Shown: positions 20,585 through 25,458 of the stretch, in pieces | How the letters are laid out: the number at the start of each line of letters is the position of its first letter | Position numbering within the stretch: position 1 is the first letter of the stretch | Source: an uncultured Pelagibacteraceae bacterium | GTDB lineage: Bacteria > Pseudomonadota > Alphaproteobacteria > Pelagibacterales > Pelagibacteraceae | NCBI GenBank assembly: GCA_902598595.1 | Contig: CACKCD010000006.1 | Coordinates: forward strand, 1-41,332 | Direction: 5' to 3' | Length of the DNA: 41,332 nucleotides | Notes under the pieces: model-generated | What the model was told of the DNA's origin: nothing | Database searches by the model: none | Seen by the model: the letters and a program-made list of their open reading frames with translations, nothing else | Made by a program: the position numbers and the translations under genes

Positions 20585-21157
20585 TTATCTTGGAGATCTT
20601 TTTGAAAGTATTCTTTGAAGTGTTCTTCTATGCATTTTAAGTCGTCTAGCTGTTTCTGAAACATTTCGATTACATAATTCAAATACTCTATGAATATGCT
20701 CCCATTTTACTCTATCAGCTGACATAGGGTTTTCAGGTGGTTTTGCTTTTGACTCAGGAGATGCTAACAATGCTGCTTCCACATCGTCTGCATCTACAGG
20801 TTTAGCCATATAATCTATAGCTCCGGCCTTAACAGCTGCTACAGCGGTAGGCAAATTCCCGTATCCGGTTAACATTACAATTCTGCAATCTTTTTTATTA
20901 CTAGATAGTTCTTTCACTACGTCCAATCCATTGCCATCTTCTAACCTCAAATCTATTAAAGCAAAGGCTGGAGGGCTATTTTTTACTATTTGAAGCCCCT
21001 CTGCTACGGTTTTAGCGCCTTTGACTAAAAAACCCTTCTTTTCCATAGCTCTTGCGAGCCTTCCACGCAATGGATCGTCATCATCAAGAATAAGAAGAGA
21101 CTTATCTGAGAAATCAGAGAGTTTTAGTTGTTCTGGATAATTTTTTTGAGCATTCAT
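20585..21157 (-). CDS. regA: Redox response regulator RegA/PrrA/ActR
   Basis: Receiver DLRLEDGNGLDVV; Pro-rich linker KPPENPMSADRVKWEHI; Fis-like HTH RNVSETARRLKMHRRTLQRIL. Confidence 0.93.
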   Translation of the reverse strand: MNAQKNYPEQLKLSDFSDKSLLILDDDDPLRGRLARAMEKKGFLVKGAKTVAEGLQIVKNSPPAFALIDLRLEDGNGLDVVKELSSNKKDCRIVMLTGYGNLPTAVAAVKAGAIDYMAKPVDADDVEAALLASPESKAKPPENPMSADRVKWEHIHRVFELCNRNVSETARRLKMHRRTLQRILSKRSPR

Positions 21158-21228
21158 ACAACTTAGATATAGTTATTCAGTGCAAGATTACAACAGTCAA
21201 AAATGCTTTTTTTTCTTTACATGAAGTG

Positions 21229-21285
21229 AAAAAAACCTTAAATGCGGACTATTAGGTTTTTTTTATTGAAATTTTTTAAAAACCT
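21229..21285 (+). promoter_or_regulatory. Candidate 5' leader with mutually exclusive hairpins before the ODC-like gene
   Basis: AAAAACCT (21231-21238), AGGTTTTT (21254-21261) and AAAAACCT (21278-21285): the middle element can pair with either flank. Confidence 0.5.
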
Positions 21286-21313
21286 TTTGTGTAAACTAAC
21301 GAGGGACACATGA
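21242..21313 (+). CDS. Candidate leader peptide MRTIRFFLLKFFKNLLCKLTRDT
   Basis: 23-codon frame from ATG 21242 to TGA 21311-21313, ending 1 nt before the ODC-like ATG at 21315; no strong SD of its own. Confidence 0.3.
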   Translation: MRTIRFFLLKFFKNLLCKLTRDT

Positions 21314-21314
21314 A

Positions 21315-22493
21315 ATGCGAAAATTTAAAGACGTTAACGAACTAGTTAATGAGCTAAAACCTGATTACCCCGTATATTGTATACGGCCAGAGTCGATTAA
21401 AAAATCAACAAAATTCTTCAAGGATAATTTTCCAGGTAAAGTACTTTATGCTGTTAAAACAAATCCTAATGAAAAAGTTATTAAACAAATTATTTCCAAT
21501 GGGATTGAAGATTTCGACGTAGCTTCACTAAATGAAATCAAATTAATAAAAAAAGTAAAACCTGATGCTAATTTATATTTTATGCACACAATTAAAAGCA
21601 AGGAAAGTATTTCATCTGCTTATTTTGATTATGGAGTTAAAAATTTCGCATTAGACAATAGAGACGAACTTAGAAAAATTCTTGAAGCAACTAATCAAGC
21701 TAAAGATTTAAACTTATATGTAAGAATAGCTATTTCTAATGAGCATGCTGAAATTGATTTATCAAGAAAATTTGGTGCGTTGCCTTCTGAAGCATTAGGT
21801 CTAGTAAGATTATGTAAAGAACATTCAAAAAAACTTGGAATAAGTTTTCATGTTGGCTCGCAATGTATGCATAAAATTTCTTATTCAAAAGGTATTCGGG
21901 AAATAGGAACTATTATTAAAAAAACTAAAATAGTACCTGATATTATAAATGTAGGTGGTGGTTTTCCCTCGATTTATCCAGATCTTAATCCTGAACCAAT
22001 TAGTAACTATCTTGATGAAATCAAAGCGTCTCTTAAAAATTTAAAATTGCCAAAACTACCGAAAATTATTTGTGAGCCTGGTAGAGCCTTAGTTGCTGAA
22101 AGCGGATCTACCATAGTAAAAGTTGTTTTAAGAAAAAAGGATAATTTATATATTAATGATGGTACATATGGCTCTTTATTTGATGCAGGAGTTCCAAACT
22201 TTGTTTTACCAACTAAGATGATTACTAAAGGTAGAATTCATTCTAAAAAATTAACTTCGTTTAGCTTCTTTGGGCCAACTTGTGACAGCTTAGATTTTAT
22301 GAAGGGACCTTTTTTATTACCAAACAATATAAAAGAAGGTGATTACATAGAATTAGGGCAGCTAGGCGCGTATGGACTAACTTTTAGAACAAAATTCAAT
22401 GGTTTCTATTCAAATGAAATTTTCGAATTGAATGATAAGCCTATTATGTCTTTATACGAAGATTCAAGTAAAGTTAATTACTTGGTTGCTTAA
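21315..22493 (+). CDS. Ornithine decarboxylase-like PLP enzyme (alanine-racemase-fold, group IV)
   Basis: PLP Lys motif YAVKTNPNE; SFHVGSQC; INVGGGFPSIYP; CEPGRALVAESG; FGPTCDSLD. Confidence 0.9.
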   Translation: MRKFKDVNELVNELKPDYPVYCIRPESIKKSTKFFKDNFPGKVLYAVKTNPNEKVIKQIISNGIEDFDVASLNEIKLIKKVKPDANLYFMHTIKSKESISSAYFDYGVKNFALDNRDELRKILEATNQAKDLNLYVRIAISNEHAEIDLSRKFGALPSEALGLVRLCKEHSKKLGISFHVGSQCMHKISYSKGIREIGTIIKKTKIVPDIINVGGGFPSIYPDLNPEPISNYLDEIKASLKNLKLPKLPKIICEPGRALVAESGSTIVKVVLRKKDNLYINDGTYGSLFDAGVPNFVLPTKMITKGRIHSKKLTSFSFFGPTCDSLDFMKGPFLLPNNIKEGDYIELGQLGAYGLTFRTKFNGFYSNEIFELNDKPIMSLYEDSSKVNYLVA

Positions 22494-23539
22494 TGACAAA
22501 AAAAAATGGTCCTAACATCGGACACAATAAAAAATCATTTTTAAATAATCCTGTAGAACATATTGATATTACCTCTTTTGACGCTCGAAAGATAATTGAA
22601 GGTATGAGCAAAATGTCATTTACTTCTAGAGACACCGCAAAAGCAGCAAAAATTTATAATGAAATGATATCGGATAAGAACTGTTCTATTTTTTTAACTC
22701 TTGCTGGCTCAACTTCAGCTGGTGGTTGTATGAAACTCTATTCTGATTTAGTTAAATATAACATGGTTGATGCTATAGTGGCTACAGGAGCCTCTATAAT
22801 AGACATGGATTTCTTTGAGGCATTGGGGTTCAAACATTATCAAGGATCTCAATTTCAAGACGATACAGAGCTTAGAAAGAACTATATTGATAGAATTTAT
22901 GACACATATATTGATGAAGAAGAGCTTCAAGACTGTGATCGGACTATTTGTGATATTGCTAATTCATTAGATCCTAAGGCTTACACATCAAGAGAGTTTA
23001 TTAAAGAATTAGGTAAATTTCTGAAAGATAATGCAAAAAAAAAGGGGTCTCTAATAGAAACTGCCTATGAAAATAATGTTCCTATCTTTTGTCCAGCATT
23101 TACGGATAGTTCTGCAGGTTTTGGATTAGTTATGCATCAGGAACAAAATCCAAAAAAACATATTACAATCGACTCTATTAGGGAAATGAGGGAGTTAACT
23201 GAAATCAAGATTAAATCTAAACAATCAGGGTTAATAATGATAGGTGGAGGAGTTCCTAAAAATTTTATTCAGGATACAGTTGTGTGCGCAGACCTTTTAG
23301 GCAAGAAAGTCGATATGCATAAATATGCTATACAAATTACTGTGGCAGATACGAGAGATGGCGCTTGCAGTAGTTCAACTTTAAAGGAAGCGAGTTCATG
23401 GGGTAAAGTAGATATTGCAAAAGAGCAAATGGTTTTTGCTGAAGCTACAAGTGTTCTTCCTTTAATTGCTAGCGACGCATATCACAGAAAAAATTGGAAA
23501 AATAGAGAAAAAAGAAATTTTCAAAAAATCTTTAAATAA
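22493..23539 (+). CDS. Bacterial deoxyhypusine synthase-like protein
   Basis: FLTLAGSTSAGG, DAIVATGASIIDMDF, CPAFTDSSAGFGL, IMIGGGVPKNF, ASSWGKV (the DHS catalytic-Lys region). Confidence 0.9.
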   Translation: MTKKNGPNIGHNKKSFLNNPVEHIDITSFDARKIIEGMSKMSFTSRDTAKAAKIYNEMISDKNCSIFLTLAGSTSAGGCMKLYSDLVKYNMVDAIVATGASIIDMDFFEALGFKHYQGSQFQDDTELRKNYIDRIYDTYIDEEELQDCDRTICDIANSLDPKAYTSREFIKELGKFLKDNAKKKGSLIETAYENNVPIFCPAFTDSSAGFGLVMHQEQNPKKHITIDSIREMRELTEIKIKSKQSGLIMIGGGVPKNFIQDTVVCADLLGKKVDMHKYAIQITVADTRDGACSSSTLKEASSWGKVDIAKEQMVFAEATSVLPLIASDAYHRKNWKNREKRNFQKIFK

Positions 23540-23543
23540 TATT

Positions 23544-24419
23544 ATGAGTAAGATTAGATTAGCTTTAATACAGATGAAGATGTCATCTGAAAAAAAGAAA
23601 AATATTGAAAATGCTGTTTCAAAAATTTATAAAGCCAAAAAAAAAGGTGCAGATATTATTTGTTTGCCTGAATTGTTCTTAACAAATTATTTTTGCCAAA
23701 CTGAAAAGCATTCTAATTTTAATTTAGCAGAAAAGATTCCAGGTCCAACGACCGATATCTTTTCTTATCTTGCTAAAAAACTTAAAATAATTTTGCTTTT
23801 ATCACTATTTGAAAAAAGAACTTCAGGTATCTACCATAATACTTGCGTAATAATCGACGAGAAAGGGAAAATTAAAGGCAAATACAGAAAAATGCATATA
23901 CCGGATGATCCTCAATATTATGAAAAATTTTATTTTACACCAGGAGATCTTGGTTTTAGATCTTTTAAAACATCAAAAGGTAATTTAGGGACTTTAATTT
24001 GCTGGGATCAGTGGTTTCCAGAAGCAGCAAGACTTACTGCTATGAAAGGGGCAGAAATAATTTTTTATCCAACTGCAATAGGATGGCATCCAAAAGAAAA
24101 AAAGAAGTTTGGAAAAAGTCAATTAAATTCTTGGTTATCAATACAAAGAGCACATGCTATTGCAAATGGTGTTTTTGTTGCAGCAATTAATAGAACAGGG
24201 ATAGAAAAACAAGGCTCAAAAAAATTAGAATTTTGGGGTAACAGCGTAATATTTGATCCAAGTGGAAATATTATAAAAAAGGCAAAATTTACTGAACAAA
24301 TACTTATTTGTGATATTGATTATAAAAAAATAGAAACAGTAAGAAGACATTGGCCTTTTTTTAGAGATAGAAGAATAGAGTATTACAAAGACATACTAAA
24401 AAATCCAATAGATGGTTAG
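23544..24419 (+). CDS. aguB: N-carbamoylputrescine amidase (nitrilase superfamily)
   Basis: ICLPELFLTNYFCQTE (Glu), KYRKMHIPDDPQYYEKFYFTPGDLGF (Lys), LICWDQWFPEAARL (Cys); start adjusted to MSKIRLALIQ. Confidence 0.9.
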   Translation: MSKIRLALIQMKMSSEKKKNIENAVSKIYKAKKKGADIICLPELFLTNYFCQTEKHSNFNLAEKIPGPTTDIFSYLAKKLKIILLLSLFEKRTSGIYHNTCVIIDEKGKIKGKYRKMHIPDDPQYYEKFYFTPGDLGFRSFKTSKGNLGTLICWDQWFPEAARLTAMKGAEIIFYPTAIGWHPKEKKKFGKSQLNSWLSIQRAHAIANGVFVAAINRTGIEKQGSKKLEFWGNSVIFDPSGNIIKKAKFTEQILICDIDYKKIETVRRHWPFFRDRRIEYYKDILKNPIDG

Positions 24420-25458
24420 CAAATTTAAAGATGTTGGATATAGGATGCCAGCAGAATGGGAAAAACAAAAATCCACTTGGGTAGCCTGGCCACACAATAA
24501 AAAAGACTGGCCAAATAAATTCAAATTAATTCCTGATATTTTTGCTCAAATTATTGCGAAAATTTCTAAATTTCAGAAGGTAAATATTCTTATTGAAAAT
24601 AAAAATCTTAAAAAAAAAATTTATTTAGTTTTAAAAAATTACTTTGCTAATACTAAAAATATAAATTATACAATATGTAAAACAAATAGAGCGTGGTTAA
24701 GAGACTCCTTTCCTATTTTTGTAAAGAATAAGTTAAATAAAAAAGTTTTAATAGATTGGGGTTTTAATTCTTGGGCAAAATACAAGAATTTTAATCACGA
24801 TAATAAAATAGGTATTAAAATTAAAAAATTTCTTAATTTAGACTCAGTCAAACCAAAATTTAAAAATAGGAGAATTATCTTAGAGGGTGGATCAATAGAT
24901 GTAAATGGAAAAGGAGTTCTTTTAACTACTCGTGAATGTTTACAAAGTAAAATACAAGAGAGAAATATTGGCTTTAAAAGGAAAGACTATGAAGAAATAT
25001 TCAAAAAATTTTTAGGAATTAAAAAAGTTTTATGGCTTAATAAAGGAATAGTTGGTGATGATACCCACGGACATATTGATGACATAGCTAGGTTTGTAAC
25101 TAGCAAGAAAATTTTTATCGCATATGAGAAAAATAAAAACGATGTAAATTACAAAAAATTAAGAGAGAACTATCAGATAATACAAAAATTAAATAAAAAA
25201 AAAGAATTCGAGATAATAAAGATACCTATGCCTAATGCAAAATATATTGATGGCGTAAGAGTTCCTGCTTCTTACCTTAACTTCTATATTGCCAACCGAA
25301 TAGTTTTAGTTCCAGTATTTAGCGATGAAAAAGATAAAAAGATCATTAAAATTTTTAAAAAACACTTTAAAAATCGAAAAATTATTCCAATTGATTGTTC
25401 TCTGTTAATATGGGGATTTGGAGCAATTCATTGCATGACACAACAGGAACCTATTTAG
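24412..25458 (+). CDS. aguA: Agmatine deiminase (PPAD family)
   Basis: MPAEWEKQKSTWVAWPHN, ILEGGSIDVNGKGVLLTT, GDDTHGHIDDIARF, GAIHCMTQQEP active-site Cys. Confidence 0.92.
   Translation: MVSKFKDVGYRMPAEWEKQKSTWVAWPHNKKDWPNKFKLIPDIFAQIIAKISKFQKVNILIENKNLKKKIYLVLKNYFANTKNINYTICKTNRAWLRDSFPIFVKNKLNKKVLIDWGFNSWAKYKNFNHDNKIGIKIKKFLNLDSVKPKFKNRRIILEGGSIDVNGKGVLLTTRECLQSKIQERNIGFKRKDYEEIFKKFLGIKKVLWLNKGIVGDDTHGHIDDIARFVTSKKIFIAYEKNKNDVNYKKLRENYQIIQKLNKKKEFEIIKIPMPNAKYIDGVRVPASYLNFYIANRIVLVPVFSDEKDKKIIKIFKKHFKNRKIIPIDCSLLIWGFGAIHCMTQQEPI

Follow-up and report, generated by a model that had tools for sequence, protein, structure and literature searches.

In Alphaproteobacteria, the speF RNA (RF00518) precedes genes for fold-III (COG0019-type) decarboxylases and consists of a four-stem junction, or a stem with a large insertion, followed by about 80 conserved nucleotides in a long bulged stem-loop (PMC1273637). 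The leader described here likewise lies before a fold-III decarboxylase gene in a member of this class, and in both cases conservation begins near the putative transcription start site. The two are nevertheless quite distinct in architecture, as the speF model spans 153 positions with its junction and long bulged stem, whereas a predicted leader of about 64 nt here holds one hairpin of 8-10 bp and a second of 5 bp, and obtains no score against that model.

A closer structural parallel may be found in the 5'-terminal stabilising stem-loops of E. coli ompA and papA and of B. subtilis aprE. A hairpin at the 5' end stabilises mRNAs in both species and hinders 5'-end conversion by RppH (PMC3997798). 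As in these leaders, the stem-loop considered here is placed a few nucleotides from the (in our case predicted) 5' end and upstream of the Shine-Dalgarno sequence; it differs in being very AU-rich and weak and in being accompanied by conserved U-tracts. Conserved leaders have also been described in the same bacteria by Meyer et al. 2009 (the SAR11 motifs rpsB, rpsL, ffh, SAM-V and others), although the polyamine-operon leader is absent both from those motifs and from the intergenic regions listed there (PMC2704228). We found no published description of it in the open-access literature, most subscription papers lying outside the scope of that search.

Results

The window analysed here, a stretch of 41,332 nt drawn from a 725-kb partial assembly (contig C6), belongs to SAR11 (Pelagibacteraceae), and its nearest relatives are of the same family. 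A gap of 157 nt separates the divergently transcribed gene for an ActR/PrrA/RegA response regulator from gene 1 of a polyamine operon, whose start codon is at 21315. The following features are discussed below.

21208-21214, plus strand: conserved T-tract before the -35-like hexamer
21216-21221, plus strand: -35-like hexamer TTTACA (columns 21215-21221 conserved at 99-100% in the genus g1 alignment)
21222-21238, plus strand: promoter spacer of 17 nt, which includes segment A (21229-21238)
21239-21244, plus strand: -10-like hexamer TAAATG (first two bases TA in 152/152 leaders)
21250-21252, plus strand: putative transcription start at about 21251, some 7 nt past the -10-like element and predicted from the promoter
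21254-21261, plus strand: segment B, 5' arm of the leader hairpin, AGGTTTTT, covarying with 21278-21285
21257-21277, plus strand: two U-tracts, U8 (21257-21264) and U6 (21272-21277)
21278-21285, plus strand: segment A', 3' arm of the leader hairpin, AAAAACCT, covarying with 21254-21261
21288-21310, plus strand: possible Shine-Dalgarno hairpin, TGTGT (21288-21292) with ACACA (21306-21310), GAGGG (21301-21305) in the loop
21315-22493, plus strand: operon gene 1, fold-III PLP decarboxylase (ornithine/lysine/arginine type)
22493-23539, plus strand: 1,9-bis(guanidino)-5-aza-nonane synthase of the deoxyhypusine synthase family (NF002699, 575 bits; cut-off 500)

Gene 1 is present in 344 of 397 Pelagibacteraceae genomes, and the closest solved structures to its product are lysine/ornithine decarboxylases, followed by a viral arginine decarboxylase. 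The synthase gene is followed on its 3' side by relatives of N-carbamoylputrescine amidase and agmatine deiminase, both scoring under the curated cut-offs. The genes across 22493-25458 suggest an agmatine-based route to homospermidine. Because of the synthase and the amidase and deiminase relatives downstream, gene 1 may encode an arginine rather than an ornithine decarboxylase.

The initial annotation of this DNA had singled out three segments of the gap, A (AAAAACCT, 21231-21238), B (AGGTTTTT, 21254-21261) and A' (AAAAACCT, 21278-21285), and had proposed that B pairs with either flank to give mutually exclusive stems. All three segments are found exactly where it placed them, its upstream stem of up to 10 bp has exactly matching arms (AAAAAAACCT, 21229-21238, with AGGTTTTTTT, 21254-21263), and the Shine-Dalgarno sequence that it put at about 21301 is present as GAGGG. 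An 8-nt trio of this kind was recovered from 0.35% of dinucleotide-shuffled versions of the gap and from a single one of the window's 263 tiles, while a trio with at least two G/C was seen in 0/2000 shuffles of the gap; the arrangement is not a product of chance or of AT-rich composition. The B:A' stem of the window is AU-rich, 8 bp long and weak (duplex -7.1), and the first 45 nt of the leader fold with a z of -0.7. Over its full length the gap has an unremarkable folding energy relative to shuffles (z -0.04), and support for structure therefore comes from conservation and not from stability.

Our comparison covered 13 genera (g1, g5-g15 and g17) and about 240 orthologous leaders. Among 88 distinct g1 leaders, the alignment is almost completely conserved between about 21208 and the start codon. 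Across all genera, an arrangement of TTTACA (or TTGACA/TTTACT), N16-18 and a TA-initial hexamer occupies a fixed place in 152/152 distinct leaders, with the hexamer TT[TG]AC[AT] itself also present in 152/152 and the spacer measuring 16 or 17 nt in 151/152, its sequence varying freely in other genera. The layout was scored by taking the best of three spacers for each sequence, and part of this agreement is built in by that choice; the regularity between genera is well beyond it. A consensus promoter scan of the window did not return this element, because TAAATG is a poor match to TATAAT. Counted from the putative start, the leader is estimated at 60-69 nt in 139/152 leaders and at about 64 nt in the window.

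The position of segment A inside the spacer of this conserved promoter-like element bears directly on the proposed switch, as A would then probably lie on the 5' side of the RNA start and go untranscribed. In g15 the spacer keeps ACCTTAA even though the leader is without the complementary AAGGT, for which reason segment A appears to be retained for its own sake.

MAFFT alignments of the A/T tracts set the stem out of register, and we therefore used swap tests in place of a covariance model, in which the 5' segment of every leader was matched, at fixed cut points and without alignment, to 3' segments taken from the others. In g1 and g5 the cognate B:A' pairing was better by 9.4 sd (0/5000; z -9.4). 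In g7, where the hairpin is of other sequence (arms AAAGU/ACUUU or AACUUGCAUA/UAUGCAGGUU) and lies in a different place relative to the U-tracts, the cognate pairing was better by 7.0 sd (0/5000; z -7.0). These statistics ignore kinship; the safeguards are that g7 gives its result independently and that controls using a downstream segment were flat (z +2.0 and +0.3). For A:B the same test gave a z of -4.1 in g1 and g5 and of +1.9 in g7; the A:B signal stems from the main clade, where both segments are nearly fixed.

The main stem classes point the same way. For B/A' arms of AAGGU/ACCUU, AAGAU/AUCUU, AGGGU/ACCCU, AAGAG/CUCUU and AAGCU/AGCUU, the mean B:A' duplex energy is, in order, -8.0, -8.8, -8.8, -9.4 and -8.1 kcal/mol, whereas A:B weakens from -12.3 kcal/mol in the AAGGT class to -5.4 in AAGAG and -3.5 in AAGCT. 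This pattern indicates that the B:A' pairing is preserved by compensating changes across these classes and that A:B is not, with A:B being lost in whole lineages that keep B:A'. For the A:B half, this is the outcome that the initial annotation had named as counting against its own proposal. Over 8 pairs in 92 leaders, 680 cells are Watson-Crick, 49 are G-U and 7 are other combinations, in a register picked to maximise pairing, which makes the paired fraction flattering; we regard it as informative that G-U predominates among the exceptions (49/56) and that positions 2, 4 and 5 show several Watson-Crick types. The comparison argues that one 5'-terminal hairpin is real and that the pairing itself is conserved.

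The hairpin begins a few nucleotides past the putative start in g1, g5, g7 and g12. A clear 5' hairpin was not found in the leaders of g6, g8 and g11, and it is therefore not indispensable. In g7 leaders (L139, L143, L219-L247), a U8 run lies directly 3' of the 5' hairpin in a terminator-like arrangement, a few nucleotides from the putative start, and some g7 stems carry GCAUA/UAUGC.

Two tracts of at least five U are present in 94/94 g1 leaders (10.9 expected) and in 30/30 g7 leaders (12.1 expected); the double tract was not seen in leaders of g8, g9, g10 and g15. Downstream of the tracts, TGTGT and ACACA of the possible Shine-Dalgarno hairpin are nearly invariant in g1 and are the sole match to this pattern in the genome. 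The swap test for this hairpin gave no covariation in g1 and g5, where almost nothing varies, and was weakly positive over all genera (z -4.7), the hairpin taking other forms in other genera. We also asked whether the conserved loop AAAUUUUUU pairs with codons 2-4 of gene 1, and rejected this as cognate pairs were no better than others (-5.69 vs -5.76). Conservation at these codons is only mildly unusual, and in g7 the loop/gene-start pairing looks striking yet has no cognate advantage.

No family was matched in Rfam scans of the window and of the leader. For speF (RF00518) there was no match in the window and none at E up to 10 in 21100-21400; 0/60 family genomes scored over the cut-off, a count for which there was no positive control, as the control genomes gave no match either. 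Two weak speF-model matches far under the gathering score, G094:C1:87870-88018 (L249) and G101:C2:88243-88310 (L250), are probably due to chance.

Discussion

The explanation that we tentatively prefer, and to which we would give close to an even chance, is that the gap carries the promoter and short 5' leader of the polyamine operon, with a constitutive protective stem-loop and a U-rich ribosome-loading sequence. The promoter layout, the hairpin and the conserved U-tracts are borne out by comparison between genera. In this model, transcription would begin just before segment B (about 21251), and the mRNA would start within a few nucleotides of the AU-rich stem-loop (21254-21261 with 21278-21285). 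The stem-loop would most likely shield the message against decay that begins at its 5' end, the U-tracts and the Shine-Dalgarno sequence shown in a loop of its own would most likely aid ribosome loading, and the element as a whole would be constitutive. The nearly constant B:A' energy across stem classes, the swap tests in g1 with g5 and in g7 together with their flat controls, and the placement of the hairpin a few nucleotides past the putative start in four genera, for which there is precedent (PMC3997798), are all consistent with this model. Less readily accommodated are a start site that is itself a prediction, a -10-like element that poorly matches TATAAT, a weak hairpin and the three genera without a clear one. 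Furthermore, equally strict conservation would be expected of a regulated leader.

Regulation of this kind is possible, if on the unlikely side. Here the 5' stem-loop, the U-tracts and the hairpin around the Shine-Dalgarno would reshape with a metabolite (arginine, agmatine, ornithine or a polyamine), a protein or temperature, and would thereby set the translation of the operon. The near invariance of about 100 nt within a genus, the presence of the Shine-Dalgarno sequence in a loop whose short, conserved hairpin occurs nowhere else in the genome, and the membership of the downstream genes in one biosynthetic pathway would all fit such a leader. However, apart from the U-tracts, a leader of about 64 nt with two short AU-rich stems contains nothing that is obviously a conserved aptamer-like core; the Shine-Dalgarno hairpin does not covary in g1 and g5 and changes form elsewhere, and the pairing of leader and gene start is unsupported. 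It is rather improbable that the locus represents a very small new class of SAR11 regulatory leader (about 64 nt, with two U-tracts and with 5'-terminal and Shine-Dalgarno hairpins) that senses arginine, agmatine, polyamine or temperature and acts on translation.

The attenuator or riboregulator leader suggested by the initial annotation survives as a conserved leader with a covarying B:A' RNA hairpin, and loses its mutually exclusive switch. Our analysis confirms the three segments, leaves the switch unsupported and indicates that one of the two stems is the conserved hairpin. We accordingly doubt that the leader is a transcription attenuator, with a terminator hairpin accompanied or not by an alternative A:B stem. 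The main clade has a strong A:B pairing (about -12 kcal/mol, with a swap z of -4.1), but segment A falls in the spacer of the promoter-like element, and the pairing is largely lost from the AAGAG and AAGCT classes and missing from g7 (z +1.9). In g7 a U8 run stands immediately behind the hairpin, much as it would in a terminator, but too little RNA lies on the 5' side of that hairpin for an antiterminator; B:A' has no long U-run behind it in the window or in g1, and a scan of the window finds no terminator. A plausible A-B-A' switch can emerge when one of its segments is a promoter spacer.

An element acting at the level of DNA, with the inverted repeat past the promoter as a repressor binding site, seems to us very unlikely. 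The repeat does lie just after the -10-like element, a usual operator position, but its arms change jointly to other sequences in close relatives, the g7 hairpin is unrelated in sequence, and exceptions to Watson-Crick pairing are mostly G-U (49/56), which argues for RNA and against a DNA operator. The degenerate speF RNA entertained by the initial annotation can be set aside almost entirely, as the decarboxylase family and bacterial class are shared, but the leader is far too short for the model, has neither the junction nor the long bulged stem, and gives no covariance-model match.

Few cells in the ocean are as abundant as SAR11 bacteria, which have very short intergenic regions and only a small number of known regulators. 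That compensating changes have apparently kept a polyamine-operon leader in much of the family suggests that RNA structure is under selection in AU-rich leaders, a kind that searches based on GC content would miss; the GC filter of Meyer et al. 2009 (at least 26%) disfavours AU-rich leaders of such a kind (PMC2704228).

Several smaller observations concern the genes on either side of the gap. Two conserved stretches, ATAT (21167-21170) and CAAC (21191-21194), are compatible with a minus-strand promoter of the divergent ActR/PrrA/RegA gene (region 21166-21194), which with such a promoter would be almost leaderless. An ATG at 21310, 5 bases before the gene 1 start, opens a short frame (21310-21345) that overlaps gene 1; this frame is common in g1 and missing from several genera. 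In one g7 genome (G257, L248), the decarboxylase match has two in-frame stops and is missing its first 68 residues.
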